Positions 33,483 through 55,174 of a DNA stretch of 64,000 nucleotides are shown in pieces (the stretch's first letter is position 1; every line of letters starts with the position of its first letter). The notes beneath the pieces were generated by a model. That model did no database searches and was not told the DNA's origin. It saw only the letters and a list, made by a program, of their open reading frames with translations. The stretch is from the IMG/VR virus record IMGVR_UViG_3300031715_000001, positions 42,689-106,688 of that record; one strand, 5' to 3'. The stretch comes from a virus. The position numbers and the translations under genes were made by a program.

Positions 33483-33938
33483 TCAGACTTGGAACGTTTC
33501 GTGCCGAACTGAGGTTTCGGCACGTTGGGCTAGCGCGTTCCGGCGTTCTATCCGTTTGTTTCGCCAGTGGTAATAACGCCAGCGACAGTGCAGAATGAGC
33601 GAAGAAAGCGAACGCTCAGTATATTCGCTGCACCCGATTTGAATCGAACTTGTGGTTGTTTTCTGGTCGACATACCACTGCCGCCAGACGATATGACCAT
33701 CCGCCCTCTTGCGAACGTCGAGGTGCGAAGGAAAGTCCTCCAATCGGCACATGATCGGAGGGTCAGCTTCCTTCGGGCATATTCGGATAAACAGGCAGAG
33801 TACGACGTTTCGGTAGATATTCCCGGTCGAGGCTTCCGTACAGTCGCCACGCTTCCGTTCGCCGGAATCGTAAAGCCCGACCGAAAGACCGTCTTCGTCG
33901 TAATGTGCAGTAAGTCGCTGAATGTCAGGTCCGTGCAT
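33483..33938 (-). CDS. Cassette gene, paralogue of the gene at 54366-54815
   Basis: The ATG at 33938 has a good ribosome site (ccAGGAGacttgcgATG) and gives 151 residues; an upstream ATG would add residues encoded by the hairpin repeat. The core (GLYDSGERKRGDCTEAS, RNVVLCLFIRICP, HLDVRKRADGHIVWRQWYVD) matches the other paralogue (GAYDTGQRKRADYYDV, RNLLVRLLIQVLP, HLDIRTRSDGAVVVRQWIGD). The C-terminus runs through a hairpin repeat. It is bracketed by outward-facing repeats on both sides, a complete cassette between two ejection-protein genes. Function unknown. Confidence 0.6.
   Translation of the reverse strand: MHGPDIQRLTAHYDEDGLSVGLYDSGERKRGDCTEASTGNIYRNVVLCLFIRICPKEADPPIMCRLEDFPSHLDVRKRADGHIVWRQWYVDQKTTTSSIQIGCSEYTERSLSSLILHCRWRYYHWRNKRIERRNALAQRAETSVRHETFQV
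33491..33530 (-). repeat. Hairpin repeat, minus orientation, left end of the 33.5-kb cassette
   Basis: Stem CGTGCCGAA pairs with TTCGGCACG, loop CTGAGGT. The copy at 39931 has the same loop but stem CGCAGCGAA with TTCGCTGCG, so both arms changed together. Confidence 0.85.
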
Positions 33939-33953
33939 CGCAAGTCTCCTGGC

Positions 33954-34026
33954 CGATAACCGGACTGCCCGGTTAGCGGTCCGATGTGCTCTGCGCCCGT
34001 TTACAGGAGGGCGCAAGACGGAAGAA
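33954..34026 (+). repeat. Hairpin repeat with Box A, plus orientation, right end of the 33.5-kb cassette
   Basis: Box A GATAACCGGACTGCCCGGTT (itself able to fold AACCGG with CCGGTT) precedes the main stem GCGCCC/GGGCGC and the tail AAGACGGAA. It separates the cassette start from the gp7-like stop. Confidence 0.85.
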
Positions 34027-34028
34027 AG

Positions 34029-35027
34029 TTATGGGGTTCCAGTCGGGCTATAAGATCCCGCAGGAGGTGGTGCTGCTGTTCCATTTACTCCCCCACCAGG
34101 TATGAGTAAAGTGTTTCCGCTGTTGCCAGGCATTCCGTATACCACGCGATTGGCGGCATTGGTGATTCCGCCCAAGGCCGTGTTTAAAGCATTGGTCTGC
34201 CCGATCACACCCGCGCCTTGTGCGGCCGCTCCGCCCTCTAAAGCTTGCCCGGCGATCTGGGCCGCCTGCAGGCCTGTGTTGCCGGCGTAGGTCGCGGCGC
34301 TCGTGGTGTTGGCTGCGATTTTCCCCGCCGTGTTCTGTACGTTCGTATTCTGGAGCTGCCCGGTGTTTCCGATGTCGGTGTTGACCAGGCCGGTCGCCTG
34401 CAGTCCGCTTCCAGAGAGATTCTGGAGTCCCGAGATCTGCGAGAGCACGTTTTGACGGTTGGTGTTGTACTCCGATAGTGCATTATTGAAATCGGCTTGG
34501 TAGTTGGTGGCCGCCAGGCTATTGGCGAGCCGTGATGTTTCCCTCGTCGCTCCACCGGTGAGCAGTCCACCCGACGCCGCCTGGCTCCGCTGCAAGGCTT
34601 GCTGTTGCTGCTGGACCTCATAGTTATAACCGGGATTGGCGGGATTATTGGTTAGATCATTCGCGGTAAAGCTGAACTGATTCGACGGTGCGGTCAGTGA
34701 GCTGAGCGCGGCCTGCAGCCCCGTGGTGGCTGTCTGTCCGGCCTGGACATAAGGATTGACCGCCGCGATCTGATTGGTGAGGGCGCTGCTTAATGTCGCG
34801 TTGCCCGTATCGGACGCCGCCTGTAGTCCGGTGTTCGCGGCTCCGGTTGCTGTGTTGACGCCCGCCGCCGCGGTTCCGGCCGCCGCTGTAGCCTGCTGAC
34901 CGACCTGTTGCGCCGCTTGAGTCTGGATCTGGGCGGCTTTCGCGGCGCCCTTGCCGCCGAAGATACCCCCGAGCAGGCTTCCGCCCGCGCCAATCGCACC
35001 AGCAGTGACGGCCCCCCCAAGCGGCAT
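34029..35027 (-). CDS. P22 gp7-like DNA-transfer/internal virion protein
   Basis: The product has 332 residues: a Gly-rich hydrophobic N-terminus (AVTAGAIGAGGSLLGGIFGG), then Ala/Gln/Thr helices. The motif around residues 150-190 (SGGLLTGGATRETSRLANS, NYQADFNNALSEYNTNR) is typical of podovirus tail or DNA-transfer proteins of the gp7/gp14 kind. The C-terminus is Gly/Pro-rich. It probably lines the head-tail channel or is ejected. It lies just upstream of the coiled-coil ejection protein, with one cassette inserted between them. Confidence 0.65.
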   Translation of the reverse strand: MPLGGAVTAGAIGAGGSLLGGIFGGKGAAKAAQIQTQAAQQVGQQATAAAGTAAAGVNTATGAANTGLQAASDTGNATLSSALTNQIAAVNPYVQAGQTATTGLQAALSSLTAPSNQFSFTANDLTNNPANPGYNYEVQQQQQALQRSQAASGGLLTGGATRETSRLANSLAATNYQADFNNALSEYNTNRQNVLSQISGLQNLSGSGLQATGLVNTDIGNTGQLQNTNVQNTAGKIAANTTSAATYAGNTGLQAAQIAGQALEGGAAAQGAGVIGQTNALNTALGGITNAANRVVYGMPGNSGNTLLIPGGGVNGTAAPPPAGSYSPTGTP

Positions 35028-35030
35028 TGT

Positions 35031-35498
35031 TTAATTAATCTCCATCGGTCGGGACAGCCCAACAATAATCAAATCTTGAAGTCGGCCATGTTTCATAAAC
35101 GAGCGTGGGTGTACGCCGACGATTTCCATGCCCGAAGCCTTGGCAAACGCTAAAGCAGCGCGGTTACTCGCCACGATCGTTCCAATCAGTCTTTGGCATT
35201 TGGTTTCGCCCCAGATCCATTCCCTGAATTCCCTTGCGGCCCTACGCGCTCTTCGTCCCCAGGCTGAAGGGAGAAAGGCTTCGTGCAGTTCCCACATCAC
35301 GTGAGAATGTTTGGCGACCATGAATAATCCGATCAGCTCGGGACCGTCTTTGACCAGCACGTACTTCAGTAATTCGTGCTCGGGCGGTTCCCATTCGGAA
35401 GCCGGCGGCGCGAAATCATCGTGCATGTGTTCGTAGAGTTTGGGGTGTGTCAGTATGCTCTTGAGGATCTTTGGATCGGCGCAAACCTCGAAAGTCAT
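35031..35498 (-). CDS. GNAT-like protein, P22 gp14/DUF2824-like
   Basis: The product has 155 residues with an acetyltransferase-like fold: ELIGLFMVAKHSHVMWELHEAFLP, then WGETKCQRLIGTIVASNRAALAFAKASGMEIVG, where the last part matches the GNAT motif B region. Phage members of this group (P22 gp14, head completion) sit among head genes as here, next to the gp7-like gene. It overlaps the upstream GNAT gene by 83 bases, unusually long for this operon. Whether it still binds acetyl-CoA is unclear. Confidence 0.6.
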   Translation of the reverse strand: MTFEVCADPKILKSILTHPKLYEHMHDDFAPPASEWEPPEHELLKYVLVKDGPELIGLFMVAKHSHVMWELHEAFLPSAWGRRARRAAREFREWIWGETKCQRLIGTIVASNRAALAFAKASGMEIVGVHPRSFMKHGRLQDLIIVGLSRPMEIN

Positions 35499-35979
35499 TC
35501 GCGGTGATACTCACTGTCAGGTATGGGACGAGCTGGCCCGCGCGCCAGGAGCTGCCCGGCATATCGCAGTCTTTAGCGGCCAGCTTGGCCAGGAATTTCG
35601 CGATCGCGATATTGTCCGAGAAGAATTCGGCGTAAACGCGCTCGACGCCCGCCTCAAACCCGCGCTTCAAAACCTCGAAGACAGCTTCGAGCGGAAGTCC
35701 CGAACCGTGCACCTCTCTGGTGAAACAGATGCCACGGAACCAGGCCACGGGCTTCCCTTGAATCTCCATGCGCTGGTATCCGATGGCTCCGATCGGCAGG
35801 CTATCCCAGAAGACCAGATAAAGGTCCCAGCCACGCTCTTTTCTCCGCTCCATCTCTTCGGTGAACTCGATGTAACTCTTCGGTCCATGGTCGGAGAAGT
35901 TAAACTCCGGGAATTCTTGCATCCATTCCCAAAGGGTTGTGTAATACCACGATGGAAAGGGTGTCACTAATCGAATCAT
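35416..35979 (-). CDS. GNAT-family acetyltransferase-like protein
   Basis: The product has 187 residues. It shows the GNAT strand order: YLVFWDSLPIGAIGYQRME, AWFRGICFTREVHGSGLPLEAVFEVLKRGFEAG and VERVYAEFFSDNIAIAKFLAKLAAK. The strict Q/RxxGxG/A acetyl-CoA loop is degenerate (EVHGSGLP). The last 28 residues overlap the next gene. Two adjacent GNAT-like genes suggest an old duplication or two roles, such as head completion and protein modification. It precedes a cassette with outward-facing repeats. Confidence 0.6.
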   Translation of the reverse strand: MIRLVTPFPSWYYTTLWEWMQEFPEFNFSDHGPKSYIEFTEEMERRKERGWDLYLVFWDSLPIGAIGYQRMEIQGKPVAWFRGICFTREVHGSGLPLEAVFEVLKRGFEAGVERVYAEFFSDNIAIAKFLAKLAAKDCDMPGSSWRAGQLVPYLTVSITANDFRGLRRSKDPQEHTDTPQTLRTHAR

Positions 35980-35990
35980 TTAGGTTATGG

Positions 35991-36058
35991 TGCGTCTTGC
36001 GCCCTCCTGTCAACGGGCGCAATGGAGAGGGGATGGTTTACCCGGCGGTCCGTTTATT
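35991..36058 (-). repeat. Hairpin repeat with Box A, minus orientation, left end of the 36-kb cassette
   Basis: Stem GCGCCC/GGGCGC with loop GTTGACAGGA-type; Box A ATAAACGGACCGCCGGG includes the stop codon of the small basic gene. Tail AAGACG. Confidence 0.85.
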
Positions 36059-36335
36059 GTGCGGCGGCCGCAACACCGGAGTAAGGCACGGCCCGGAGCG
36101 CGAATCCCAGTTCAGGAAACAGTTTCTCCTTCACGGCTTCCGCATCCAACTTGCGCGCGAAGCGCAGCGCATCGGCTCGCACTCGCGTAAAGGAATCCTT
36201 CTTCAAGCCGCATCCGGACCAGTACACTTGATCGCCTTCGATAATCCAGCCGAGTTCGGCCCCAGGGGCGAAAGGCGGCTCATAAGGCGCTGGCTTCTTA
36301 GCGGCGCGCTTTCTCTTTGCGGGTTTCTTTGTCAT
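36054..36335 (-). CDS. Small basic cassette protein
   Basis: The start at MTKKPAKRK gives 93 residues; a longer frame would overlap the divergent gene. A lysine/alanine-rich basic N-terminus (KPAKRKRAAKKPAPYEPP) suggests nucleic-acid binding. A folded part follows (ELGWIIEGDQVYWSGCGLK, VRADALRFARKLDAEAVKEKLFPELGF). The TAA stop lies inside Box A (ATAAACGGAC) of the hairpin repeat that ends the cassette. It is divergent from the plus-strand gene 27 bases away, and together they form a two-gene cassette. The family is not recognised. Confidence 0.55.
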   Translation of the reverse strand: MTKKPAKRKRAAKKPAPYEPPFAPGAELGWIIEGDQVYWSGCGLKKDSFTRVRADALRFARKLDAEAVKEKLFPELGFALRAVPYSGVAAAAQ

Positions 36336-36362
36336 TGGCTCGAATCCTGGATAATAGTCAGC

Positions 36363-36695
36363 ATGGCTGATTGTGAAAACTGCGCTGTTCTCCAGGCTCG
36401 AATTGACAACCTTTTGACCCTTCTCCAGGAGCAAATAGCGAAACTTGGAGACCAAACGCTAAAGAGCCCTTCCTGGGAAAGGAGAATGCGGATATTAAAG
36501 GCTGTCATGAACAATGACGCACCGGAGCGCGGTCAGCTTAGAGAAGACTTAGTGAGGGCGGTTGCTGATCGTGACATGAGTCATATCTTCCACGAATCCT
36601 TAGCGATAGCTGTCGTTGCGGCGCATGAACTCGGCATGACGCCGGAGCACCTCTACAAAGCTGTAAGGCCAATGTGGGAGGCCGAGCATAGATAA
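36363..36695 (+). CDS. Cassette protein with N-terminal CxxC and coiled coil
   Basis: The product has 110 residues: MADCENCAVLQARIDNLLTL, a Cys pair leading into a heptad helix, then a helical domain (ERRMRILKAVMNN, LAIAVVAAHELGMTPEHLYKAV). The stop TAA is part of the GATAACC start of the downstream hairpin repeat. It is divergent from the basic protein gene, and a weak promoter-like pair (TTGTCA, GATAAT) lies in the 27-base gap and the adjoining start. The family is not recognised; a regulator or inhibitor role would suit its size but is a guess. Confidence 0.55.
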   Translation: MADCENCAVLQARIDNLLTLLQEQIAKLGDQTLKSPSWERRMRILKAVMNNDAPERGQLREDLVRAVADRDMSHIFHESLAIAVVAAHELGMTPEHLYKAVRPMWEAEHR

Positions 36696-36762
36696 CCGAA
36701 CTGCTCGGGCGAAGATCGCCTTTTGATTGCGTGCGGGTTCCAGGAGCACGCAAGGCGTACCA
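36691..36762 (+). repeat. Hairpin repeat with Box A, plus orientation, right end of the 36-kb cassette
   Basis: Box A GATAACCGAAC holds the stop TAA of the plus-strand gene. Stem GCGTGC (36729-36734) pairs with GCACGC (36746-36751), loop GGTTCCAGGA. A stem version unique to this copy. Confidence 0.85.
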
Positions 36763-37330: not shown

Positions 37331-37365
37331 CTTTGGTTCGTGCGCGCTCCGGGCCGTTGGGATTA
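37331..37365 (-). repeat. Degenerate hairpin repeat, left end of the 37.5-kb cassette
   Basis: The edges (TTGGTTCG and GTTGGGATTA) and CGCTCC match the copy at 58137, but about 14 bases of the stem-loop are missing, so no full hairpin forms. Confidence 0.5.
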
Positions 37366-37390
37366 AGATTGAGCTATCGACGTGGTTCGG

Positions 37391-37733: not shown

Positions 37734-38023
37734 CGGCCCGGAATCGGGTTCCATCCGCAGGGCTCCTTGCATTCCACAATCGTGATGGTCTTCCAGTGTT
37801 GTCCTAATTCGCGCTTTACAAGATTCACCACTTGTCGCGGCGAATCGCACCATGTGACACCTCCGAAGCCAGGAGAATCCATGAGCACCTCGTATCGTCG
37901 GCTCGGCCTTGATCCAGGGCCAATCGGCAGTGCCCAAGCTCCCATCATCAACAGGAGTGCGGCAAGGGTGGCGAAGAAAACCTGCCGATAAACGGACCGG
38001 CCGATCGAAGACTTGATCTTCAT
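37730..38023 (-). CDS. Small membrane-anchored cassette protein
   Basis: The start at MKIKSSIGRSVYRQ gives 97 residues. One membrane segment (about 15-33, VFFATLAALLLMMGAWALP) is followed by a soluble tail with two Cys motifs (VTWCDSPRQVVNLV, VECKEPCGWNP). A longer reading would enter the hairpin repeat. It converges with the plus-strand gene across a shared 43-base hairpin. A lipoprotein or superinfection-exclusion role would suit the topology, but nothing confirms it. Confidence 0.5.
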   Translation of the reverse strand: MKIKSSIGRSVYRQVFFATLAALLLMMGAWALPIGPGSRPSRRYEVLMDSPGFGGVTWCDSPRQVVNLVKRELGQHWKTITIVECKEPCGWNPIPGR

Positions 38024-38123
38024 TGCGCCCGTCGGCCAGAAGCGAAGATGGGTGCCCCTGCTTATCCGCAGGACAAGGCCGGGTATCCAGGATGCGAGTG
38101 GACGAGGAGGGCGCAAAACGGAA
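37987..38123 (+). repeat. Long-loop hairpin repeat with Box A, right end of the 37.5-kb cassette
   Basis: Outer stem GCGCCC (38025-38030) with GGGCGC (38109-38114); the 78-base loop carries CTTATCC-GCA-GGACAAG and is almost identical to the long copy at 19.3 kb. Tail AAAACGGAA. Confidence 0.85.
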
Positions 38124-38147: not shown

Positions 38148-39902
38148 TTATGAAGGCCCCAATTCAATCAAGGCATTATAAATAGCTTTCAGTTGTCGAG
38201 CCGTACTCTTGATCTTAAAAGTCTTTGAAATCCAGAAAGCACCGAGTGAGTACCACACAGGCTTAGGATCGAAGACTTGAGGATTAGTCTGCGAGTTCTG
38301 CGTCATATCGGTGATCTCGTCCGGCGTCAGGAAAGTTCCCTCATACTCTCCAGATCGTCCAAGCGATGCAGCTCCGGCATCTACCCAGGTGCGCGCACCG
38401 TCCGATGACGTGGCCAGGTTGACGGTGGGGATCAGCGGCTTTCCATCCAGCCCCAAGTTAGCGGGGTCGATTGTTCCTAACTCGCAATCGAGGGCAAAAC
38501 ATTTGATGTTCTGCATTTCGAGGTTGGAATTGATGTGCGGGGAAATCCGCATCACCGGGATATCGACGCCGTCGTCCTGGTCGAAGTCGGGCGAAACCTG
38601 CCAGATCTTGCCCGAAGCGAAGCCCGCGACCAAGTCCATCCTGGTCCCGCTCGGCCAGGTGACGTGTACCCGAAAAGTTCCCGGGTCGGCCCCATATACT
38701 TCGTCCTCGGGCGTCTCCGGACCCATTTCCGACCACACACCGCCCGCCGTCTGGTCCCATTCCCAGGTTCGATTCGCGGTTGGAAAGTCAATGCGGTAAA
38801 TCGAGTGCCCGCCCTCGAGGTACGTCGAGCCAATGGCATCGTAGACGAGAGGATAGCTTCGCATGGCGTTTTCGATGCCGTGATCGGAAATACGCACAGG
38901 CGCTCCACCAGCGGAGTGAACGATCTGATCCTCGCCCCGCAGCGTGCTAAGCAGGCTGCAGATCGATCCATCGGCGAGCTTCGCCACCGACCACGGCGCG
39001 GATGTCCCGGCGTTGATATTGCGCCCGCTCACTCTGGTGAAAGGGAAATCGGCGTTTCCGGAGTCGCCCCAGACTTCGGTTTGGCTCGTGTCTCCGATCA
39101 AAGCCAATTGTCCGTTGACTTCTTGGATGGCCCCAATATTGTCGATCGAGCCCGATTTGTCCGCGAAATCGAGCTCGTCCCAGGTGCTTCCGTCCCCGAG
39201 CGCTGAGAGACGAAACTGCTTGGTGTTGGGTTGAGAGACGATGAAGTAGTCGTCGATAAATTCCGGCATGACGCCGGTCAAATACTCGGTGCCGGCCTGA
39301 TAAGCCACGTCCTCGATCATTCCGGCGTCTTTGTCCAACACTAGGTCCGTGGCGTCTGTAACGGCGATGACGTTGTAGAGAGTCGTGCCGATCATGAACA
39401 GATCGCCTGGCAGGACATCGCCGCCCGCGCCCTGGAAAAGCGCGCCCGATACCCAACTGACCGCGTTGCCGTTTACGTTTACTGTTCCGGTCGCATAGCT
39501 GATGATCGGACGGAAGAGTGAGACTCCGTTGTAGAGGTACACATTGCCGGCGCTGCACACCAAAAGCTGTAAGCCGTTGGCCCGCATGGTGGCCGGATTT
39601 CCACCTACCGCGATCGGTCCGGCCGCGTGGCTGGAAGTGTCTTCGAATATCTCGTAGAGCATCCCCCCACAAACGACGAAGACCCTGGTCTTGTTGGCCC
39701 ACATCCCTTGTACGCCGGCGCCGGGTGTTTTAAGAGTGGTGAAGAGCTTTTTGCCGGAACGCGGGAATAAGGTGAAGGGACTTTTCGAAGCAGGATCCAT
39801 ATTCTGCTCGATCCGCATGTTTACGGTACGCGTGGCCGAGGCTCCTCTAGCCCGTGAGTTGTAGGAGCCAGCGCAGAAATTAGCTATGGGCGTCAGTGGC
39901 AT
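38148..39902 (-). CDS. P22 gp10-like tail hub/packaged DNA stabilisation protein
   Basis: The product has 584 residues. The opening (NFCAGSYNSRARGASATRTVNM), KSPFTLFPRSGKKLFTTL, beta-propeller-like repeats (TRVFVVCGGMLYEIF, GQLALIGDTSQTEVWGDSG, WDQTAGGVWSEMG) and LDKDAGMIEDVAYQAGTEY match the family of P22 gene 10 (tail accessory factor that closes the portal). The length is close to gp10 and relatives. It lies downstream of gp4-like genes as in P22. The start is an ATG directly after a hairpin repeat. Symbol not assigned because the phage differs from P22. Confidence 0.75.
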   Translation of the reverse strand: MPLTPIANFCAGSYNSRARGASATRTVNMRIEQNMDPASKSPFTLFPRSGKKLFTTLKTPGAGVQGMWANKTRVFVVCGGMLYEIFEDTSSHAAGPIAVGGNPATMRANGLQLLVCSAGNVYLYNGVSLFRPIISYATGTVNVNGNAVSWVSGALFQGAGGDVLPGDLFMIGTTLYNVIAVTDATDLVLDKDAGMIEDVAYQAGTEYLTGVMPEFIDDYFIVSQPNTKQFRLSALGDGSTWDELDFADKSGSIDNIGAIQEVNGQLALIGDTSQTEVWGDSGNADFPFTRVSGRNINAGTSAPWSVAKLADGSICSLLSTLRGEDQIVHSAGGAPVRISDHGIENAMRSYPLVYDAIGSTYLEGGHSIYRIDFPTANRTWEWDQTAGGVWSEMGPETPEDEVYGADPGTFRVHVTWPSGTRMDLVAGFASGKIWQVSPDFDQDDGVDIPVMRISPHINSNLEMQNIKCFALDCELGTIDPANLGLDGKPLIPTVNLATSSDGARTWVDAGAASLGRSGEYEGTFLTPDEITDMTQNSQTNPQVFDPKPVWYSLGAFWISKTFKIKSTARQLKAIYNALIELGPS

Positions 39903-39930: not shown

Positions 39931-39968
39931 GTTCGTTTCGCAGCGAACTGAGGTTTCGCTGCGGAGGG
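39931..39968 (-). repeat. Hairpin repeat, minus orientation, left end of the 40-kb cassette
   Basis: Stem CGCAGCGAA with TTCGCTGCG (9 pairs). Loop identical to the copy at 33491, stem different on both arms. Confidence 0.85.
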
Positions 39969-39971: not shown

Positions 39972-40343
39972 GTGAGCAAGAACTTTCCACTGACCGCACG
40001 AAAGTACGATCTTTATGTAGCCTTGGATGAGGCGGTAGAAGTTGGCCGCGTACTATTCGCAGGGCGCAAGCGGCGTTTCGTGATTAAGGAGCTTATGTCT
40101 CGCGAGGCGTGGGATGCCGAAAGAGCCATTCCGCCCCAAGGCGATCCGAAGGGGCGCTGGCTAGGGCCTGGAAAATGTGACGACAAGCCCAATGATGAAA
40201 GCCTGAGCTACAACCCGTCCGCAGGCATTCCAGAAGAATGCAAATTCTTCTATGGGGCGGACTACCTACCTCAGGACCTCAGGACTAATCCCCAACGTGC
40301 CCGTGCTCCGGGAGGGCACGAGACGGACCACAGGCCTGATTGA
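39972..40343 (+). CDS. Hypothetical cassette protein ending in a hairpin repeat
   Basis: A GTG start follows a strong purine run (gcGGAGGggctGTG), giving 123 residues. The middle is ordinary soluble sequence (SKNFPLTARKYDLYVALDEAVE, RRFVIKELMSREAWDAERA). The last about 20 codons read through a hairpin repeat and give the recurring peptide NPQRARAPGGHET. The next gene overlaps by four bases (ATGA). It is bracketed by outward-facing repeats, on the strand opposite to the neighbouring late genes. The family is not recognised. Confidence 0.5.
   Translation: MSKNFPLTARKYDLYVALDEAVEVGRVLFAGRKRRFVIKELMSREAWDAERAIPPQGDPKGRWLGPGKCDDKPNDESLSYNPSAGIPEECKFFYGADYLPQDLRTNPQRARAPGGHETDHRPD
40287..40326 (+). 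repeat. Hairpin repeat, plus orientation, inside the 40-kb cassette gene end
   Basis: AATCCCCAAC, stem GTGCCC/GGGCAC, tail GAGACGG. It encodes NPQRARAPGGHET at the end of the gene at 39972. Confidence 0.85.
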
Positions 40344-40528
40344 TGATGTGCCCTCGCTGCCGTAGGGAGCTTTCCCTTGGCGAAGTCCACATCGCCTGCT
40401 CTCCAGCGATTACCATGGCGTGCCCGATATGCCGCGCCGAAAATGACCGTACACGCTCAAAGTGCCATCACTGCGAATCCGAGCTGCATCCCAAGCGGCA
40501 GGTTCAGCATGTGACCACTGATCACTGA
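40340..40528 (+). CDS. Small zinc-ribbon protein
   Basis: The product has 62 residues with CPRC-x(16)-CPIC and CHHC pairs, a double zinc ribbon typical of small phage regulators. It overlaps the preceding plus-strand gene (ATGA) and the end of the convergent gp4-like gene by seven bases. The repeat that closes the left part of the cassette lies inside the previous gene, so this second gene may have been added afterwards. It could be a transcription or translation regulator; no direct evidence. Confidence 0.5.
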   Translation: MMMCPRCRRELSLGEVHIACSPAITMACPICRAENDRTRSKCHHCESELHPKRQVQHVTTDH

Positions 40529-41262
40529 TATCTGTTTCCAAGATATACGTTACTTCTTCGGTCTCCCACCGCCCAGTCGAGTTCTCTCTTTAATGGCCGG
40601 TCGTTGTTCATCTTGATCAGTGCGAGTGATCGGATGGCATTGGCTCGCGTGTCTTCCGACATTTGCTGTTCGTTGGGATAGCGCGCGGCCAATTGTACGG
40701 CTAAATTGGACTCGATCATCATCTGGTAGCCGTTGGGATAAGTCAGTTCGGCGTCGCCAGTGGCATCGATTTGCGAAAGCGGCTGCTCGAGATACAACGC
40801 TATCTGGTTGGCATCGGTCGGAACGAATACCAAGTGCAGGGTACCAAGGGGCGGCTGAGAGCGTTCGTAGTAGAAGCATCTTGGATAACTGATAGTCTGG
40901 GTCTTTAATGTCCAGCCCTGCCATTCATCGAGCGTGAGTGGTTGCATCCGATATTCAGGGTAGGGCGCGTTGGCTGTGACGGTTACGAGTACCCCGGCGC
41001 GTTCGATCTGGTTCGGTGCGACCGGCATATCGAAGTCTCCGCCCGGTCCTACCAGATAATCGCCCTGGTTCGAAACCAGAGGAAACAGCATACGTGCGAC
41101 GTGCGAGACGGTGAAGCCGTCGGCGGCTAGTTGATCGACGAAGCGGTTGTAGAGCTGCCGGCATTCCTCGTTCTGATCTGGAGAGAGGATGGTCTGCTCG
41201 GTTTTGACAATCCCTGCGTCTCTAAATGCGCCGTAGAATAATTGAGTGATCGATATGCCCAT
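40522..41262 (-). CDS. Tail adaptor, P22 gp4-like, copy 2
   Basis: The product has 246 residues: a mostly helical N-terminus (ITQLFYGAFRDAGIVKTEQTI, NEECRQLYNRFVDQLAADGF), then a beta region (MPVAPNQIERAGVLVTV), then helices (MMIESNLAVQLAARYPNEQ). This order (DALxxIG, NxxVxxLxx, later AxxLAxxLA) is shared with the gene at 45198-45959, and both resemble P22 gp4, the head-to-tail adaptor. Two diverged copies flank several structural genes and cassettes. The end overlaps a convergent cassette gene. Confidence 0.6.
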   Translation of the reverse strand: MGISITQLFYGAFRDAGIVKTEQTILSPDQNEECRQLYNRFVDQLAADGFTVSHVARMLFPLVSNQGDYLVGPGGDFDMPVAPNQIERAGVLVTVTANAPYPEYRMQPLTLDEWQGWTLKTQTISYPRCFYYERSQPPLGTLHLVFVPTDANQIALYLEQPLSQIDATGDAELTYPNGYQMMIESNLAVQLAARYPNEQQMSEDTRANAIRSLALIKMNNDRPLKRELDWAVGDRRSNVYLGNRYQ

Positions 41263-41294: not shown

Positions 41295-41332
41295 AGCGTT
41301 TCGTGCCGCACTGAATTAGCGACACGGTCGGA
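41295..41332 (-). repeat. Hairpin repeat, minus orientation, left end of the 41.5-kb cassette
   Basis: Stem GTGCCGC with GCGACAC (one mismatch), loop ACTGAATTA shared with the copy at 54224. It ends just before the plus-strand gene. Confidence 0.8.
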
Positions 41333-41334: not shown

Positions 41335-41802
41335 ATGATCATCGTTCGTCTATCTCTGTGGCAAAAGCTAAAGTTACTTTTCGGTTGGTACCTGCAGATC
41401 GAGGAATGGCCAATCGGTCAGAGTTATTACCAGTACGTGCTAGGGCCTTGGGAAACACCGCGACAATTCAGGAGCCGGTGGCGGTGCGAGCGTTGCGGTG
41501 AATATATCGAAGGTGATCGTGATGGTCATAAGTGTGTTCCGCGTCGGCCTCCGTATAGTTCCTATGTTTACGGTGAAGGTGTTGTGCTCGCTGAGATCCT
41601 TAAAGTGGTAGGCAGGCGGGGTATTCAACTCCGTGACATTCAGAATCTCCCAGGCGTTCTCGAACAGGACTATTCGACAATTCAGGACAGGATTGAAGAA
41701 TACGAAAAGCAGATCGCCGTCCTGGAGACGATCAAATCGTCAAGTGTGCCCGACACAGATCCCCAACGTGCCCGTGCTCCAGGAGGGCACGAGACGGAAT
41801 AA
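41335..41802 (+). CDS. Zinc-ribbon cassette protein with repeat-encoded C-terminus
   Basis: The product has 155 residues. A hydrophobic N-terminal helix (IIVRLSLWQKLKLLFGWYL) is followed by a zinc-binding pair (CERCGEYIEGDRDGHKC), a beta linker and a coiled coil (IQDRIEEYEKQIAVLETIK). The last 17 codons are encoded by the right-hand repeat (DPQRARAPGGHETE) and the stop lies in its GGAATAA tail. A left-hand repeat copy ends just before the start. Together this is a textbook cassette: outward repeats, one plus-strand gene, set between two minus-strand late genes. Confidence 0.6.
   Translation: MIIVRLSLWQKLKLLFGWYLQIEEWPIGQSYYQYVLGPWETPRQFRSRWRCERCGEYIEGDRDGHKCVPRRPPYSSYVYGEGVVLAEILKVVGRRGIQLRDIQNLPGVLEQDYSTIQDRIEEYEKQIAVLETIKSSSVPDTDPQRARAPGGHETE
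41759..41802 (+). repeat. Hairpin repeat, plus orientation, right end of the 41.5-kb cassette
   Basis: CCCCAAC, stem GTGCCC/GGGCAC, loop GTGCTCCAGGA-type, tail GAGACGGAATAA, which holds the stop codon of the gene at 41335. Confidence 0.85.
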
Positions 41803-43559: not shown

Positions 43560-44087
43560 TCAACTGTGGTCGTAATACACCGTGGCGAACACCCCGCAGG
43601 AAGCGTCATCGAAGTTTTCTACGGTGAGCCGAAAGAACGCTTCTGCCGGGATCTGGTGATAGTCCTTGTGAGGAGGTTCGTAGTCTTCGCTGGTACCGTT
43701 TGAAACCAGATAACCGAGGATCGTCTCGACGCCGCCTGAAACCGATTTGACGGTCCAGACACAATCGCGGCTGGAAGCAACGATGACCTTGGCCAGCTTT
43801 CCGCCCGCTGAAATGGCGGGGCAGTCGAAATTTTCAGAGCCCGCCGCCGCGAGAGTGCTATTGGAGAACACCTGAAAGGTCGGGTTCATGGGCCCGGCCT
43901 GGCGAACCACCGCGCCTCCGTCGGCTGAGCCCGGATCCACGGCGCGAACATCCTGCAAATCGCCGGCATTGGCACCTGCGATGCGTCCGCGTTCCCGGTA
44001 AACCAACTTGCCCGCGACTTCGAGCGAATCCGCATCGAGGCTTTTGCCCGGCCCGTCTTCCGGCAGTCCGATAACATCGTTGGCCAT
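43560..44087 (-). CDS. Virion-region protein; source of the 95-bp duplication
   Basis: The product has 175 residues: an acidic N-terminal part (MANDVIGLPEDGPGKSLDAD) and a beta domain (GGKLAKVIVASSRDCVWTVKSVSGGVETIL). The C-terminus (KDYHQIPAEAFFRLTVENFDD, then ASCGVFATVYY) comes from the 95-bp segment that is also found, identical, in the divergent gene at 44403-44843, read there on the other strand. No family recognised. It is probably a structural protein like its neighbours. Confidence 0.55.
   Translation of the reverse strand: MANDVIGLPEDGPGKSLDADSLEVAGKLVYRERGRIAGANAGDLQDVRAVDPGSADGGAVVRQAGPMNPTFQVFSNSTLAAAGSENFDCPAISAGGKLAKVIVASSRDCVWTVKSVSGGVETILGYLVSNGTSEDYEPPHKDYHQIPAEAFFRLTVENFDDASCGVFATVYYDHS
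43575..43669 (-). repeat. 95-bp duplication, source copy
   Basis: This segment encodes the C-terminal end of the minus-strand structural gene at 43560. It is identical, base for base, to 44676-44770, in the same orientation, 1101 bases away. The source copy lacks the flanking 14-base direct repeat, so it is probably the donor. Confidence 0.9.
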
Positions 44088-44402: not shown

Positions 44403-44843
44403 GTGTACGTTATTCCGTTTCAGCTCAACGCTCGCGAGTATTCTATCTTCGTGGTCCTGCAGGAGGAGGGCTTGAAGCGGATCCGCGCCTACGATCCGGC
44501 CCAGGTGAACGTGCAGGCGCTAGGCCCGGCGTTTACGCATCTGCGGCTGAAGGATATTCACGTCGGGTACGCCACTGATTCTGAAATCCGGGAGGTCCTC
44601 AGACTCGCTGAATTAGGGCGAGTGCAGGATGGCCTGAAGTGGCTATCCCGTGGTTTCGAGTTCAAGCCCGAATTCATACACCGTGGCGAACACCCCGCAG
44701 GAAGCGTCATCGAAGTTTTCTACGGTGAGCCGAAAGAACGCTTCTGCCGGGATCTGGTGATAGTCCTTGTCAAGCCCGAATTCGGGGATCACGACGGGCC
44801 GCCGTTGAGCCTGAAACGAAAGCCTGGGGAGCCCGCGCAGTGA
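44403..44843 (+). CDS. Cassette gene carrying an in-frame 108-bp insertion
   Basis: A GTG start with a GAGGG ribosome site gives 146 residues. The head (NAREYSIFVVLQEEGLKRIRA, FTHLRLKDIHVGYATDSEIRE) resembles proteins common in phage genomes, which in memory end with a 'xRPxxGDxD' type motif. Here residues about 92-127 are an insertion of 36 codons made of the 95-bp duplication plus one copy of a 14-bp direct repeat, splitting 'FKPEF' from 'GDHDGPPLS'. Removing it would restore a shorter protein of about 110 residues. Function unknown. Confidence 0.6.
   Translation: MYVIPFQLNAREYSIFVVLQEEGLKRIRAYDPAQVNVQALGPAFTHLRLKDIHVGYATDSEIREVLRLAELGRVQDGLKWLSRGFEFKPEFIHRGEHPAGSVIEVFYGEPKERFCRDLVIVLVKPEFGDHDGPPLSLKRKPGEPAQ
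44676..44770 (+). repeat. 95-bp duplication, inserted copy with 14-bp direct repeats
   Basis: This copy is flanked by TCAAGCCCGAATTC at 44662-44675 and at 44770-44783 (sharing one base). Copy plus one direct repeat is 108 bases, exactly 36 codons, and keeps the plus-strand gene open. Here the segment is read on the strand opposite to the source gene. Confidence 0.9.
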
Positions 44844-45123: not shown

Positions 45124-45185
45124 CCGGACTGCCGGGGCGGCGTCCGCTCTTCATTGCGCCCGTTGCCAGGAGGGCGCAAAACGAA
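45119..45185 (+). repeat. Hairpin repeat with Box A, end of the Acb2-like gene
   Basis: Box A ATAACCGGACTGCCGGGG contains the stop of the plus-strand gene. Stem GCGCCC (45156-45161) with GGGCGC (45172-45177); tail AAAACGAA. The matching left copy of this cassette is not visible. Confidence 0.85.
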
Positions 45186-45197: not shown

Positions 45198-45959
45198 TCA
45201 CTGTCCCGGAACTACTGGTGTTCCATCACCCTTAGTAGGTCCAGCTAATGTTCTTGAAGATCCAAATGCTCCACTCAGTTTGTCATTATTGATCTGCTCT
45301 AACTTCTGAATTGCATCCTGATACTGTGCCGTCACTTCCGGGGTGACACTGAACCGGTAAGCGGGAGCTAGTGCGATCGTCAAACCGAGGCGCATCGGTA
45401 GGATATATTCAGTCGGAAAGTAGTTCTCGATCAGCTGCTGCTCGTCGCCTGGGGCAAAGGTGGTCAGCGGATTCCACTGCGCCTGCTTCAGGAATCCGTT
45501 GAACTGCGGGATGGGCGCGACATTGATGGTCGCAATCGGCACGTTGTAGTCGTAGAAATAATCCGTGGGCCCGTCCGGATCCTGGAGAGTCCTTGTCGTC
45601 AGGCTTCCAAACTGGGGCCGGGTCAGGATATTCAGCGGCCAGCGGCGCGCGGTTCCGACGATATACCAGACGGCCTGCACGTACACCGGCCTGGTGTAAG
45701 TGGGATTCGCGCCTCCGGTCTCGAAGTTTGGCGCAGCGCCGGCCCCCGGCCCGATCTGATAGCTCCCGACGCCCGCCGTGAGCGGATAAGAGACCTCGGG
45801 CACGAAGTTTAGCCGGAGCCTCGAGGCGGACCAGCTTTGCAGCATATCCGTCTGCGTTCGCATGGCGTGCGCGACACGTTGGCCGGACGGAGTCTGTCCG
45901 GGCGTGAGCGCGCCCACGTCAGAGAGCGAGTCGCTTATGAGGTCGAGTACAGAGGGCAT
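45198..45959 (-). CDS. Tail adaptor, P22 gp4-like, copy 1
   Basis: The product has 253 residues. The opening helices (VLDLISDSLSDVGALTPGQT, AHAMRTQTDMLQSWSASRLR) are typical of the gp4 adaptor family; a beta part follows (VSYPLTAGVGSYQIGPG), then helices (RLGLTIALAPAYRFSVTPEV, YQDAIQKLEQINND). The N-terminal pattern 'LIxxSLxxxGxLxxGQTxSxxxxxxAxxxxxxMLxSW' is the family hallmark. Its second, more diverged copy is at 40522-41262. Such adaptors seal the portal. It precedes a cassette. Confidence 0.65.
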   Translation of the reverse strand: MPSVLDLISDSLSDVGALTPGQTPSGQRVAHAMRTQTDMLQSWSASRLRLNFVPEVSYPLTAGVGSYQIGPGAGAAPNFETGGANPTYTRPVYVQAVWYIVGTARRWPLNILTRPQFGSLTTRTLQDPDGPTDYFYDYNVPIATINVAPIPQFNGFLKQAQWNPLTTFAPGDEQQLIENYFPTEYILPMRLGLTIALAPAYRFSVTPEVTAQYQDAIQKLEQINNDKLSGAFGSSRTLAGPTKGDGTPVVPGQ

Positions 45960-46014: not shown

Positions 46015-46569
46015 TTACTTGTTCGCATCGGCCGCTCTCTTGTCCGCATCGGCCGCTCTCTTGTCCGCATCGGCCGCTTTCTTTTTCTCGGCGTTCAATT
46101 GGTCCTCGCAGTCGGGATCCTTTCCCGGTTGAAAGTCTTTTTCCGGTAGAGGGGGGTTGGCGAGGGGCGGCATGAAACGGCCTTGTTGGGTCGGCGCCGG
46201 CACGAGAACAGCCTCGGGAGCGAGGCGAAGAGGAGGTTCCCCTTCGGGCTGCACGGGCGCTGGGACCACTGGCGCCGTGTAAGCCGCCCGGATCGCCGCG
46301 CCGATATTTCTGCCGATGGACCCGGTTTTGGGGAACTGCTCGGCTATCGCTACGTCGCGGCCCATCTGGTCCAGAACTCCCTGGTTGTAGCCGCGCTGAT
46401 AATCTTCGTCGGCCAGTGCCAGGCGCGAGGCGGTGTCGGTAATGGCACGCTCGCGCGTGAATTGTTTGTAGTCTTCCGGATTCACGCGGCTGTGCTCGAG
46501 TTCATCCTTGACGAGCCGGGGTTTGCCTGGGTTTTGGGGATCCGGGATATAGCGGGGATGATGTTCCAT
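46015..46569 (-). CDS. Acidic/helical virion-region protein with tandem C-terminal repeats
   Basis: The product has 184 residues. The N-terminal half has helical charged sequence (TRERAITDTASRLALADEDYQ), a Pro-rich linker, and a C-terminal tail of three repeats of the form KRAADAD encoded by 21-bp tandem repeats. It starts directly after the ribosome site AAGGAG. No family is recognised; it may be a scaffold-like or head-internal protein. Confidence 0.5.
   Translation of the reverse strand: MEHHPRYIPDPQNPGKPRLVKDELEHSRVNPEDYKQFTRERAITDTASRLALADEDYQRGYNQGVLDQMGRDVAIAEQFPKTGSIGRNIGAAIRAAYTAPVVPAPVQPEGEPPLRLAPEAVLVPAPTQQGRFMPPLANPPLPEKDFQPGKDPDCEDQLNAEKKKAADADKRAADADKRAADANK
46024..46086 (-). 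repeat. 21-bp tandem repeats at the end of the 46.0-kb gene
   Basis: Three units of cgcatcggccgctctcttg-type sequence (unit 21 bases; the third diverges at its end) encode the KRAADAD repeats of the protein. The units are in frame, so copy number can change without loss of the frame. Confidence 0.8.
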
Positions 46570-51892: not shown

Positions 51893-51919
51893 AACCGCCC
51901 TTGCCGGGGAGAAGAGGCA

Positions 51920-52455: not shown

Positions 52456-52503
52456 TGAGGGGCACCCATCTTCGGTCGATGCCGCCGAGCGCGTTGGGGA
52501 TTT
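52456..52503 (-). repeat. Half copy of the long-loop hairpin repeat
   Basis: On the minus strand CCCCAACGCGCTCGGCGGCA, then CGAAGATGGGTGCCCC, follows the left half of the long copies at 19.3 and 38.0 kb; the right half is missing. It lies right after the stop of the gene at 52513. Confidence 0.65.
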
Positions 52504-52512
52504 GCGGTCCGG

Positions 52513-52800
52513 TTACCTGGGCTTGGTGGTCCTACAGTTGCAATCGAAGGTGTCCCAGATGGCGCAGTCTTTGTGATGCGTGACCATACCGTGTGCAGCG
52601 GCGCGCTCTACCTGACGCGCCGCCGCTCCCAGAAAAAGCGCTGTCGTGGTGGGGTCTTCTGAAACCGCGATGCCGTGCATGTCGATCTCGCCGTTGCTCA
52701 TGAAGGCGTGGTCGTAGCCGGCTGCTTTCAGTTTCAGTTTGATCTCCTGGTATGCATCCGAAGAGACTTCCAGTACCACGTAGGTGTGTGTGTTATGCAT
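52513..52800 (-). CDS. Hypothetical phage protein with C-terminal Cys-rich tail
   Basis: The start overlaps the preceding stop (ATGCATAA); a start twelve bases upstream is also possible. The product has 95 residues. The fold: THTYVVLEVSSDAYQEIKLKL, AGYDHAFMSNGEIDMHGIAVS, TTALFLGAAARQVERAAAHG, ending HHKDCAIWDTFDCNC. The first part looks like a compact alpha/beta protein found in several phage genomes. A hairpin half-copy follows its stop. Function unknown. Confidence 0.5.
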   Translation of the reverse strand: MHNTHTYVVLEVSSDAYQEIKLKLKAAGYDHAFMSNGEIDMHGIAVSEDPTTTALFLGAAARQVERAAAHGMVTHHKDCAIWDTFDCNCRTTKPR

Positions 52801-53272
52801 CGTTCCATCCATCGCTGTGTTGCTTTTTTACGCGTATAACCGCGTGCGCTTTTCGTCCGCCCGCAATCAACTGAATCAGAGCCGGGGTCGTCAGCTTAGC
52901 GCGCTTCGGATCCGCTTCCCAGAGATTGCAGCAACCCATTGGGTCGATCTTGCCCGGTGTTGCCCCCGGTGACCGCTTATCCACGCGCTTGCAATCGTCG
53001 GGCGCTTCTAATTCCTCGCAACGCCGGCACCCGAACCCTGGTTTATTCTCGACGTATCCGGTTTCGATTCGGGTCTTGTCGTGATTGCCTTCGATCCGTC
53101 CCTTGCTTAGATCTTTCCAGTCGTTGCATCCGCCGAATGGCTTCACGTCTTCATCAGACTTTACGTAGTCGGTGCACTTCCCTTTAGAAGAGATGAAGGC
53201 ACACTCACTACAGTGCAGTTCGCATCCGGAGGCAAGAATGTACCCGGCTTCTGCTTTCGTGAGTTTTTCCAA
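52793..53272 (-). CDS. Cys-rich phage protein
   Basis: The product has 159 residues: GYILASGCELHCSECAF, CTDYVKSDEDVKPFGGCNDW, YVENKPGFGCRRCEELEAP, GKIDPMGCCNLWEADP. The pattern of C-x2-C-x8-C and a late CC-x2-W resembles proteins often seen near capsid genes in tailed phages, with a possible iron-sulphur or zinc site. The end (SDGWNDA) is shared with the gene at 50747-50986. Function unknown. Confidence 0.55.
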   Translation of the reverse strand: MEKLTKAEAGYILASGCELHCSECAFISSKGKCTDYVKSDEDVKPFGGCNDWKDLSKGRIEGNHDKTRIETGYVENKPGFGCRRCEELEAPDDCKRVDKRSPGATPGKIDPMGCCNLWEADPKRAKLTTPALIQLIAGGRKAHAVIRVKKQHSDGWNDA

Positions 53273-53278
53273 TGAGGT

Positions 53279-53614
53279 TTATTCCGTCTCGTGCCGCCCT
53301 GGAGTTGCGGCACGTTGGGGATTCCCGCCTGCCGTGGGGGCCTGTTTCTCTCTTGTGACTTCGGCGAGTTTGCCAGCCTCTTCGTCATCGTACTTAAACG
53401 CGCTCCACTCACAGTGAGCTTTTGCGGCTTCGAGCGTCAGATACGATCTATCCACGCCTGCGACTCTTAGATCTGTGACGAACAGGAGGTGCCCGAAACG
53501 GGGCTCGCAAATCGTGGCGTAACATAGCTGGCTGTTGCGGTCGACTAGATAGTGGACGGTGTACCGCTCTCCATCGGCATCGACCGGCGTAGCCTGCAGC
53601 CATTCAACTTCCAT
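53279..53614 (-). CDS. Hypothetical protein ending in a hairpin repeat
   Basis: The product has 111 residues. The core (YTVHYLVDRNSQLCYATICEP, RFGHLLFVTDLRVAG, TLEAAKAHCEWSAFKYDD) is a small alpha/beta protein. The last 14 codons (NPQRAATPGRHETE) come from a hairpin repeat and the stop is its GGAATAA tail. It lies in a run of overlapping small genes between coat-region and portal genes. No family recognised. Confidence 0.5.
   Translation of the reverse strand: MEVEWLQATPVDADGERYTVHYLVDRNSQLCYATICEPRFGHLLFVTDLRVAGVDRSYLTLEAAKAHCEWSAFKYDDEEAGKLAEVTREKQAPTAGGNPQRAATPGRHETE
53281..53323 (-). repeat. Hairpin repeat, minus orientation, end of the 53.3-kb gene
   Basis: Stem GTGCCGC/GCGGCAC, loop CCTGGAGTT, tail GAGACGGAAT reading into the stop. 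It encodes NPQRAATPGRHETE. Confidence 0.85.
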
Positions 53615-53617
53615 CCG

Positions 53618-53854
53618 CTACTTCTTCCACTTCCGTGCATTGTTGGCGAAGTTGGCCATCTGGCGCACGTGTGCATCATCGGAGTTCAAATCTTTGTCGA
53701 TGGTCGACTGCGGGATCTCTTCCCCTTCAGGCGTCCCCGTATGGGCGCGGTAATCCCCTTCATGGGAAGGTTTGATTTTGATCGGCCCGGCACTCTTATC
53801 GGCGTTAGCCGGTGCCGGCTTGCGCTTCTTGATCAGTTTCACCCGCACCCGCAT
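53618..53854 (-). CDS. Small basic hypothetical protein
   Basis: The product has 78 residues: basic N-terminus (RVRVKLIKKRKPAPANADKS), then a loop-rich middle (HEGDYRAHTGTPEGEEIP), ending in a helix (AHVRQMANFANNARKWKK). A KPSHEGDYRAHTGTPEG segment suggests an unstructured linker. It is spaced four bases from the next gene. Function unknown. Confidence 0.45.
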   Translation of the reverse strand: MRVRVKLIKKRKPAPANADKSAGPIKIKPSHEGDYRAHTGTPEGEEIPQSTIDKDLNSDDAHVRQMANFANNARKWKK

Positions 53855-53857
53855 TGG

Positions 53858-54184
53858 CTATTCTCCGTCCGTGGCTGGAGAGGCGGGCGGTGTGTACGGC
53901 TTCTTGGTCTTCATCGGCCCCGCTGGCTGCTCGGTGATCTCATTGCCTGCAGGTTCGCTGTTTGTCGTTCCGGGCGGCACGCCTAAATGCTCGCCAGCAT
54001 GTGCCAATGCTTCCTGGATGGTTGAGAATGATCCGGTGTGCTTACGCATCGGGAAGGGATCTTTCTTCGATCCGGCATTGAGGGTGTGGACGTCGGCTCC
54101 TCCGTTTTCGGCTTTACCGATGTGCACTTCTTTCACTTCGCCGTCGGCGATGGCTTTGGCCTTGGGCTTTACACTGATCTTCAT
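53858..54184 (-). CDS. Small phage protein, two-part beta/Pro-rich
   Basis: The product has 108 residues: a beta N-terminal part (ISVKPKAKAIADGEVKEVHIG), a short helical middle (FSTIQEALAHAGEHLGVPPG) and a Pro-rich tail. The start overlaps the previous stop by ATGA. No recognised family. It is part of an overlapping gene run (53279-55174). Confidence 0.45.
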   Translation of the reverse strand: MKISVKPKAKAIADGEVKEVHIGKAENGGADVHTLNAGSKKDPFPMRKHTGSFSTIQEALAHAGEHLGVPPGTTNSEPAGNEITEQPAGPMKTKKPYTPPASPATDGE

Positions 54185-54405
54185 GATTTACTCCTTGGGA
54201 TTCTGTTCTTACTGGTTTTGGTGCGTTTCGTGCCGCACTGAATTAGCGGCACGTTGGGGATTGGCTCACCGAGCTCCCGCAGCACCTCGCCGGTCTCGGA
54301 ATCGATAAGTTCAATTCGGGTGTAGACGATACCTTCCCGCCAGTCCTTCTCGAAGCGATGAAATCTTATCCCGAGCACTGCGGAAACCTTGGATTCAGCG
54401 CCCAT
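54181..54405 (-). CDS. Small hypothetical protein overlapping a hairpin repeat
   Basis: The start at MGAESKVS gives 74 residues, preferred over an upstream ATG inside the previous gene. The core (VLGIRFHRFEKDWREGIVYT, RIELIDSETGEVLRELGEPI) is a short beta protein. The last 20 codons run through a hairpin repeat in a different frame (PNVPLIQCGTKRTKT) from the usual NPQRA frame. ATGA-coupled to the next gene. Confidence 0.45.
   Translation of the reverse strand: MGAESKVSAVLGIRFHRFEKDWREGIVYTRIELIDSETGEVLRELGEPIPNVPLIQCGTKRTKTSKNRIPRSKS
54224..54263 (-). repeat. Hairpin repeat, minus orientation, left of the 54.4-kb cassette
   Basis: Stem GTGCCGC (54230-54236) with GCGGCAC (54246-54252), loop ACTGAATTA. 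It is overlapped by the end of the gene at 54181, in a frame different from the usual one. Confidence 0.85.
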
Positions 54406-54815
54406 TTGAGAGCGAGCCGCCAATTCCCGAAGGGTCCACGCCGGTAACGGCTAAGCATGTCTCCCGGCTCCATATTCGCTTCTGCCCACCAGACTCTTCG
54501 GCCGTCGATCATCGCAGCGTAAACGCTCGGCTTGCGCTCCTGATAATTAATGGCTTCCGGGTCGCCGATCCACTGCCGAACAACGACCGCACCATCTGAT
54601 CGCGTTCGTATATCGAGATGGGAAAACTGCGATGGATCAATCCTCCCGGACGGCAGGACTTGAATCAATAGCCGGACGAGAAGGTTACGGTAGTGACGGT
54701 CGGCGTACACATCGTAATAGTCAGCCCGTTTGCGTTGGCCCGTGTCATAAGCGCCTGGAGCGAGTTGCTCTTCGTCCCACACCTCGGGCAACAACTGGAT
54801 TGGTAGAATGCTCAT
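54366..54815 (-). CDS. Cassette gene, paralogue of 33483-33938
   Basis: The product has 149 residues. Core shared with the paralogue: GAYDTGQRKRADYYDV, HYRNLLVRLLIQVLPSG, HLDIRTRSDGAVVVRQWIGD, ending in a Trp/Arg-rich tail (WRLALKWALNPRFPQ). It overlaps the preceding stop by ATGA and the next gene by 40 bases. It lies between a minus-reading repeat and the plus-reading repeat at 54826, with a second gene between them. Function unknown, but two copies in similar cassettes indicate a mobile family. Confidence 0.55.
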   Translation of the reverse strand: MSILPIQLLPEVWDEEQLAPGAYDTGQRKRADYYDVYADRHYRNLLVRLLIQVLPSGRIDPSQFSHLDIRTRSDGAVVVRQWIGDPEAINYQERKPSVYAAMIDGRRVWWAEANMEPGDMLSRYRRGPFGNWRLALKWALNPRFPQCSG

Positions 54816-55174
54816 TCGGAATTGCCGATAACCGAACTGTCGGGGTACGGGACCTCTTGACCGTGCGCGGGTTCCAGGAGCGCACAGGACGGAATACTCT
54901 CTTTCGGAACTTCAATCTTCTTTTTTGGTGATGGGAACATCTGCATCCGCATTGCAGTATTGGACACGGCGTGCTGGACCACTTCTTCAAGCGATCGCGG
55001 GCCTTTGGGCTTCTCACTGTGGATCTTGTCCCTCTCGAGCAGCCGGCATTTGGAGGTACAGCGCGGGCAGAAGGGCGTCGGTGATATGACTTCGGCGGCC
55101 TTGCCACCTGGGCGCCAGCTCCTGAAGTCTTTCGAACATCGGTCGCAGATATAGAACGAACGGGTTTCGCTCAT
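54812..55174 (-). CDS. Zinc-binding protein downstream of portal
   Basis: The product has 120 residues. The N-terminal half has CDRCSKDFRSW and CPRCTSKCRLLERD, a zinc ribbon. The middle is helical (LEEVVQHAVSNTAMRMQMF). The last about 22 residues (from CALLEPAHGQ) are encoded by the hairpin repeat at 54826-54896. ATGA-coupled to the portal stop. It may bind nucleic acid; no evidence of function. Confidence 0.55.
   Translation of the reverse strand: MSETRSFYICDRCSKDFRSWRPGGKAAEVISPTPFCPRCTSKCRLLERDKIHSEKPKGPRSLEEVVQHAVSNTAMRMQMFPSPKKKIEVPKESIPSCALLEPAHGQEVPYPDSSVIGNSE
54826..54896 (+). repeat. Hairpin repeat with Box A, right of the 54.4-kb cassette
   Basis: Box A GATAACCGAACTGTCGGGG, stem GTGCGC/GCGCAC, loop GGTTCCAGGA, tail AGGACGGAAT. 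It overlaps the end of the minus-strand gene at 54812. Confidence 0.85.

Follow-up and report, generated by a model that had tools for sequence, protein, structure and literature searches.

Small accessory genes of a phage are bracketed, place after place, by two copies of one hairpin on opposite strands, which raises the question of whether such pairs mark the boundaries of a modular unit. The locus lies in a 64,000-nt stretch (the window), bases 42,689-106,688 of the 106,688-base virus record IMGVR_UViG_3300031715_000001 (G000 for the whole record); coordinates are those of the window unless prefixed with a record name. Each hairpin consists of a CGTYT tag, a 24-25-nt stem-loop (7-9-bp stem and 7-11-nt loop with CTG) and a TTGGGG tail, and the strand of each copy is read along 5'-CGTYT-hairpin-TTGGGG-3'. 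We established the anatomy and pairing of the hairpins, the polarity of the enclosed genes, paired changes in the stems and the presence or absence of the hairpins at gene junctions. The hairpins are probably the ends of a modular element, similar to repetitive extragenic palindromic (REP) sequences, situated between phage genes; its units, loaded with a gene or empty, would be gained, lost or exchanged at the junctions.

A strict scan of G000 found 29 copies, against none in five dinucleotide shuffles, and about 42 copies are catalogued once imperfect ones, judged by inspection, are included. About 22 further copies lie outside the window, in the left 42.7 kb of G000, and the pattern is therefore not confined to late genes. 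The original prediction had placed the cassettes at junctions of conserved late genes; the 33.5-kb cassette lies at one. Among 76 copies the tag positions are conserved as C (75/76), G (73/76), T (72/76), Y (76/76) and T (73/76), counts biased by a scan that itself demanded four of the five. The stem opens with C-G (64/76; T-A in 12/76) followed by G-C (75/76), loops are mostly 7-11 nt, and the sequence after the stem-loop is most often TTGGGGAT, the tail being TTGGGG or another purine-rich sequence. The stem sequence varies among copies with pairing kept: positions 3, 6, 7 and 8 are altered on both sides, of which only 7 and 8 are free of bias because six perfect pairs were demanded by the scan. 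An 18-codon open reading frame (ORF) can be read through the tag and hairpin in a few copies as a candidate leader peptide. It is not kept across the family, and the main constraint on the hairpin is therefore something other than coding. In a long-loop family (G000 3576-3709, 40430-40564, 6332 and 10656; window 19254-19347 and 38023-38120) the stem is kept across about 75 extra nt. This insert is conserved, two stretches being 94% identical over 135 bases, and the RNA fold of one long-loop copy is unremarkable (z = -0.57).

Neighbouring hairpins within 1.2 kb in G000 form 13 inward, 5 outward and 3 ++ pairs, and none of 20,000 label shuffles was as extreme; the window alone gives 7 inward, 1 outward and 1 ++ (P = 0.00015). 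In a looser catalogue the inward bias is significant separately in three other records, G001, G005 and G014 (P = 0.010, 0.004 and 0.016), and pooling these with G004, without G000, gives 18 inward vs 7 outward pairs (0/5000 shuffles). Some copies in this catalogue are false, and these should weaken the test, not produce its result. The original prediction named eight places where the left and right copies lie on opposite strands (19.1, 33.5, 36.0, 37.5, 40.0, 41.5, 54.2 and 58.2 kb); each was checked, and all have this arrangement with the CGTYT tags outward. Pairing was also found, as claimed, to be independent of the strand of the enclosed gene, which is plus in some pairs (39973-40343, 41335-41802), minus in others (33548-33943, 54366-54815, 19077-19226) and mixed in one (36054-36335 minus, 36363-36695 plus). 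The supposed cassette at 58.2 kb, on the other hand, encloses no gene, merely 53 nt with a central palindrome between the hairpins.

This 58.2-kb unit (58140-58251) and two in G014 (1541-1651 and 9440-9550) are gene-free units of one plan in two phages. The empty unit is 110-112 bp and dyad-symmetric, with a hairpin, 15-17 nt, a palindrome, about 15 nt and an inverted hairpin; the central palindrome is 21 nt (ATAACCG-N7-CGGTTAT). Both 111-bp G014 units are 56-58% self-complementary, whereas 2000 random stretches average 25% and reach 45% at most. The same palindrome is found in loaded units, 15-18 nt inward of hairpins (G000, G014 and G002); the inner sequences of the G001 and G005 units differ from this type. 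In 9/9 loaded pairs with exactly one TTGGGGA spacer, the 3' end of the gene is on the TTGGGGA side. The gene-free unit would be the simplest form of the element. In the loaded form a gene would be placed next to the centre of the unit, with the TTGGGGAT spacer of one hairpin on one side and the opposite hairpin on the other; this opposite hairpin often retains the central palindrome together with a ribosome-binding site. Such a position would fix the gene polarity whichever way the unit faces. The hairpins may be used as DNA boundaries, in cruciform or single-stranded form, and the units may be moved by recombination, single-strand annealing or a trans-acting nuclease.

Bracketed ORFs have codon scores mostly below those of core genes, and almost none was assigned to a known family. 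The ORF at 33548-33943 is a paralogue of that at 54366-54815 (37% over 91 aa, using the longer reading 33483-34016). Bracketed genes that read through their 3' hairpin (window 39973-40343 and 41335-41802; others in G001, G004 and G005) encode unrelated proteins with a common tail, e.g., NPQRARAPGGHETE or VPRAETPVQRETEEC, and the same frame through the 3' hairpin is used by 8/13 ORFs of at least 100 aa. Window 21953-22435 (G000 64641-65123) and G000 34130-34591 are distant paralogous accessory genes, 51% identical, with a hairpin at each 3' end.

Relatives were used to compare junctions. The hairpin-rich G001 and G005, together with several low-copy contigs, were obtained by a degenerate-pattern search of IMG/VR; G001 and G005 belong to a second phage clade and are largely colinear, and most of their matched genes are 45-93% identical. 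Capsid searches found two relatives of the window phage, G013 and G014. The strict scan detected no hairpin in G013 (capsid 77% and Hc3 64% identical); about a dozen or more are present in G014 (capsid 61% and portal 58% identical). That cassettes would be present or absent between repeat pairs among relatives was borne out at several junctions. In G013 the cassette at 33495-34020 is missing, and the flanking genes are separated by 2 nt without a hairpin. G014 has, between the homologues of 46015-46569 and 45198-45959, a minus-strand gene enclosed by a hairpin pair, and neither pair nor gene is found there in G000 or G013. At one core-gene junction the pair holds a 53-aa gene in G005 vs 44 nt in G001, and G005 carries a solo hairpin at a junction of two core genes that is hairpin-free in G001. 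Beside the DUF968 gene the bracketed genes differ: in G005 it is what we take from its sequence (no database match) to be an ASCH-like protein, and in G001 another small protein. Within G005, two repeated loci are 95% identical in the outer flank and hairpin and diverge from the inner hairpin edge; another repeated locus is without the two bracketed cassettes of its partner and has kept one long-loop hairpin.

Static hairpins for RNA processing or stability at the ends of small operons, unconnected with mobility, would also be located at both ends of gene-sized segments, and bacterial REPs are thought to act partly as RNA (PMC3733652). The hairpins of these phages are present or absent together with the gene at orthologous junctions, and empty and solo copies occur; we regard a purely static role as extremely improbable.

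No relatives were found via head-closure and portal peptides, a second capsid-alignment scan added none, and a first search pattern containing TTGGGGAT had no matches. A scan for the G001/G005 capsid family found relatives whose examined stretches were without hairpins. Among cultured phages and plasmids, blastn gave no significant match to 43-nt hairpin queries. A scan of bacterial and archaeal genomes with the hairpin pattern gave five scattered single matches, and the one inspected (L064) is not such a hairpin.

Repeated stem-loops by variable genes of T4-type phages were reportedly described by Arbiol in 2010 and Comeau in 2014 and are said to mediate modular shuffling. These promoter early stem-loops (PeSLs) consist of an early promoter joined to a terminator stem-loop. 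The hairpins studied here resemble them as repeated stem-loop motifs adjoining variable phage genes, and could likewise be primarily expression signals (leader, insulator or mRNA end), with homologous recombination between repeats shuffling the adjacent genes as a side effect. A Shine-Dalgarno sequence and a start codon immediately follow many of the 5' copies, as in GGGAGGTCGATG (G001/G005) and AGGAGACTTGCGATG (window); the 3' copies are located at stop codons, and the genes often read through them; and the exchange in G005 occurred at a hairpin edge adjoining homologous flanks. Unlike PeSLs, the hairpins form inverted pairs and gene-free symmetric units, and the latter contain nothing to regulate. 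The tested hairpins are not terminator-like either: terminator-like matches in 33.4-42.3 kb include none of the window's hairpins, and no T-tracts were found. There is no clear promoter excess (8 sigma-70-like sites vs 4.9 expected, with a consensus that may not suit the host or its promoter type). Because the tags lie outside both ends whatever the strand of the gene, one RNA would carry the motif and its reverse complement and the signal would have to work as both, so a DNA signal fits better. A primary role in expression is possible, yet in our judgment rather unlikely.

A classical transposable element, with terminal inverted repeats and a dedicated transposase cutting at the tags, would explain the conserved inverted ends, the defined 110-112 bp empty unit and the insertion points that differ among relatives. 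The original prediction spoke of a modular insertion system with terminal inverted repeats and looked to the terminal bases for a target duplication. Gain and loss at junctions agree with the modular part; the other two points were not supported. An outer triplet is common to 3/13 pairs (P = 0.015, uncorrected) and a 4-bp match to none, and the ends do not look like simple terminal inverted repeats, the two stems of a pair being mostly unlike in sequence. A search of 11 records for the Y1 transposase (PF01797) found no match there, control genomes did match, and the host may encode such an enzyme. We consider a classical transposable element very unlikely.

The lack of a consistent target-site duplication among the 13 pairs, the absence of Y1 transposase from the 11 records and the unlike stems at the two ends of one pair weigh also against a REP-like modular element. 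The same is true of solo hairpins, wide pairs (over 2 kb) and outward-facing close pairs, all of which occur, and of the lack of an inward bias in G004 taken alone. The G005 locus lacking cassettes is not a clean empty site because the long-loop hairpin remains, and exact insertion points are unreadable in the relatives, whose proteins mostly show about 45-90% identity.

A DUF968 HNH-type gene was found in 9/12 hairpin-set records vs 0/12 other viral records, a comparison set that was not randomly chosen and in which four records belong to the G001/G005 capsid family. The three hairpin-set records without DUF968 are fragments of 10-22 kb, one of them without hairpins. A hairpin adjoins the DUF968 gene in at least five records. 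The co-occurrence is a lead only, since the records are related, the comparison is non-random and hairpins lie beside many genes. One could imagine a dedicated phage gene-cassette system, in which single genes are carried in fixed polarity near the centre of a symmetric three-palindrome unit and a phage nuclease, with the DUF968 protein as candidate, moves this unit in the form of extruded or single-stranded hairpins; we consider this doubtful.

Among known elements, a REP-like modular element comes closest to the CGTC-tagged REPs of bacteria, which occur mostly as head-to-head dimers and have no known transposase (Di Nocera, De Gregorio and Rocco 2013, PMC3733652). In common with these, and with bacterial interspersed mosaic elements (BIMEs) and REP doublets forming hairpins (REPINs), the phage hairpins carry an unpaired tag of CGTC type at one end, occur between genes in many copies, form dimers with the tags outside and show paired stem changes. 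CGTC-tagged REP families 1-4 have an 8-9-bp stem opening with A-T, a 4-5-nt loop and a CCA tail (PMC3733652), whereas the phage stems start with C-G, the loops are 7-11 nt and the tail is TTGGGG. Moreover, the phage copies are not chromosomal, their dimers enclose whole genes, and a central palindrome is present (G000, G014 and G002). We did not file them as CGTC-tagged REPs, because the stem start, loop length and tail differ; the tag and the head-to-head dimers agree. By analogy, the phage unit would work like a gene-carrying BIME or REPIN, and its effect would resemble that of PeSLs in T4-type phages.

Morons are accessory genes defined by their own promoter and terminator; consensus scans for such signals, which may not suit the host, did not exceed chance here. 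The cassettes resemble morons in being accessory genes between conserved genes, with atypical codon use and absent in relatives, and the 33495-34020 cassette lies between genes that are adjacent in G013; they differ in that what they have in common is an inverted pair of hairpins that recurs from place to place. Integron attC sites are folded, conserved in structure and variable in sequence, and lie next to mobile single genes. The phage sites share these traits, but they are inverted rather than direct, attC boxes were not recognised and a tyrosine recombinase is found in only 3/11 records. The start-associated sequences of cluster K mycobacteriophages are also repeats, located immediately before the start codons of small genes in phages, and 17-bp imperfect inverted repeats extend about half of them (PMC3203893). 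They differ in being nearly all in one orientation, at gene starts only, of unrelated sequence (GGGATAGGAGCCC) and not bracketing genes (PMC3203893). In literature searches with little coverage of subscription journals, no phage units of this kind were found described, which is weak evidence of novelty.

Table 1. Hairpins, palindromes and genes discussed in the text.
Feature	Position	Strand	Basis
Left hairpin, 33.5-kb cassette (tag CGTTT, 9-bp stem, loop CTGAGGT)	33495..33524	+	
Accessory ORF, 131 aa, without Pfam/PHROG match	33548..33943	-	
Central palindrome ATAACCGGACTGCCCGGTTAG, 16 nt inward of right hairpin	33956..33976		
Right hairpin, 33.5-kb cassette	33992..34020	-	
Conserved late gene upstream of 33.5-kb cassette; corresponds to G013 15740-17074	34029..35027	-	
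Conserved late gene downstream of 33.5-kb cassette; corresponds to G013 17077-18600	31934..33463	-	
Left hairpin, 36.0-kb cassette	35993..36021	+	
Accessory ORF, 93 aa, 36.0-kb cassette	36054..36335	-	
Accessory ORF, 110 aa, divergent from 36054..36335 ORF	36363..36695	+	
Right hairpin, 36.0-kb cassette	36728..36757	-	
Degenerate left copy, GGTTCG-TGCGCGCTCC..GTTGGGATT	37337..37366	+	Direct reading of sequence
Right hairpin, ~75-nt loop insert, stem TTGCGCCC/GGGCGCAA kept	38023..38120	-	
Left hairpin, 40.0-kb cassette	39934..39963	+	
Accessory ORF antisense to late operon; C-terminus ...NPQRARAPGGHETDHRPD runs through right hairpin	39973..40343	+	
Right hairpin, 40.0-kb cassette	40296..40325	-	
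Left hairpin, 41.5-kb cassette	41297..41326	+	
Accessory ORF, 155 aa, antisense to late operon; tail ...DPQRARAPGGHETE	41335..41802	+	
Right hairpin, 41.5-kb cassette	41767..41796	-	
Left hairpin, 54.2-kb cassette	54224..54253	+	
Accessory ORF, 149 aa, 54.2-kb cassette	54366..54815	-	
Right hairpin, 54.2-kb cassette	54862..54891	-	
Left hairpin, empty unit	58140..58169	+	
Central palindrome ATAACCGGATCGTTCGGTTAT of empty unit	58187..58207		
Right hairpin, empty unit	58223..58251	-	
Left hairpin, 19.1-kb cassette	19036..19065	+	
Enclosed gene, 19.1-kb cassette	19077-19226	-	
Right hairpin, 19.1-kb cassette, long-loop, stem CGTGCCC/GGGCACG	19254..19347	-	
Hairpin without detected partner, 15 nt past end of conserved gene 45198-45959	45155..45183	-	
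Hairpin without detected inward partner	53285..53314	+	
Hairpin after 3151-aa gene; plus-strand ORF 21953-22435 ends over it	22386..22415	-	
Hairpin with palindrome at 59882-59902	59837..59866	+	
Hairpin closing wide pair with 59837	62239..62268	-	
DUF968 genes	G000 38505-38960; G001 27981-28481; G005 40618-41058; L032 6638-7033; L036 7656-8084; L037 5191-5643		

The G000 record is probably complete, as judged from a 126-base repeat (99.2% identity) shared by its two ends. Among its products are head proteins of P22 type (portal, head closure Hc3 and major capsid) and a tyrosine integrase. Megablast of bases 33-55 kb found no cultured-phage matches, and Rfam matches in 18-64 kb were at chance level only. 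The gene at 22470-31925 encodes a 3151-aa virion protein that weakly matches lytic, tape-measure and tail-injection families. Two hairpin look-alikes lie within this gene (28006-28026 and 28559-28589), and the first is identical over 21 nt to the core of the hairpin at 53292. Ninety-five bases at 43575-43669 are repeated without difference at 44676-44770; this is a piece of gene 43560-44087 copied into the segment adjoining the hairpin at 45155. In G005 a 58-base promoter-like sequence (TTGACGGCG..) occurs three times (257-314, 509-566 and 41365-41422), two of the copies about 20 nt from a hairpin.

The entry of small accessory genes at phage gene junctions has mostly been inferred from mosaicism. 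Here the boundaries bear a recognisable, structure-conserved signal, and empty, loaded and swapped states are found at matched junctions, which makes accessory-gene entry directly testable. Phage accessory genes could be searched for in metagenomes by the sequence of these hairpins, and REP-type elements would extend from bacterial chromosomes to phages, and carry genes.

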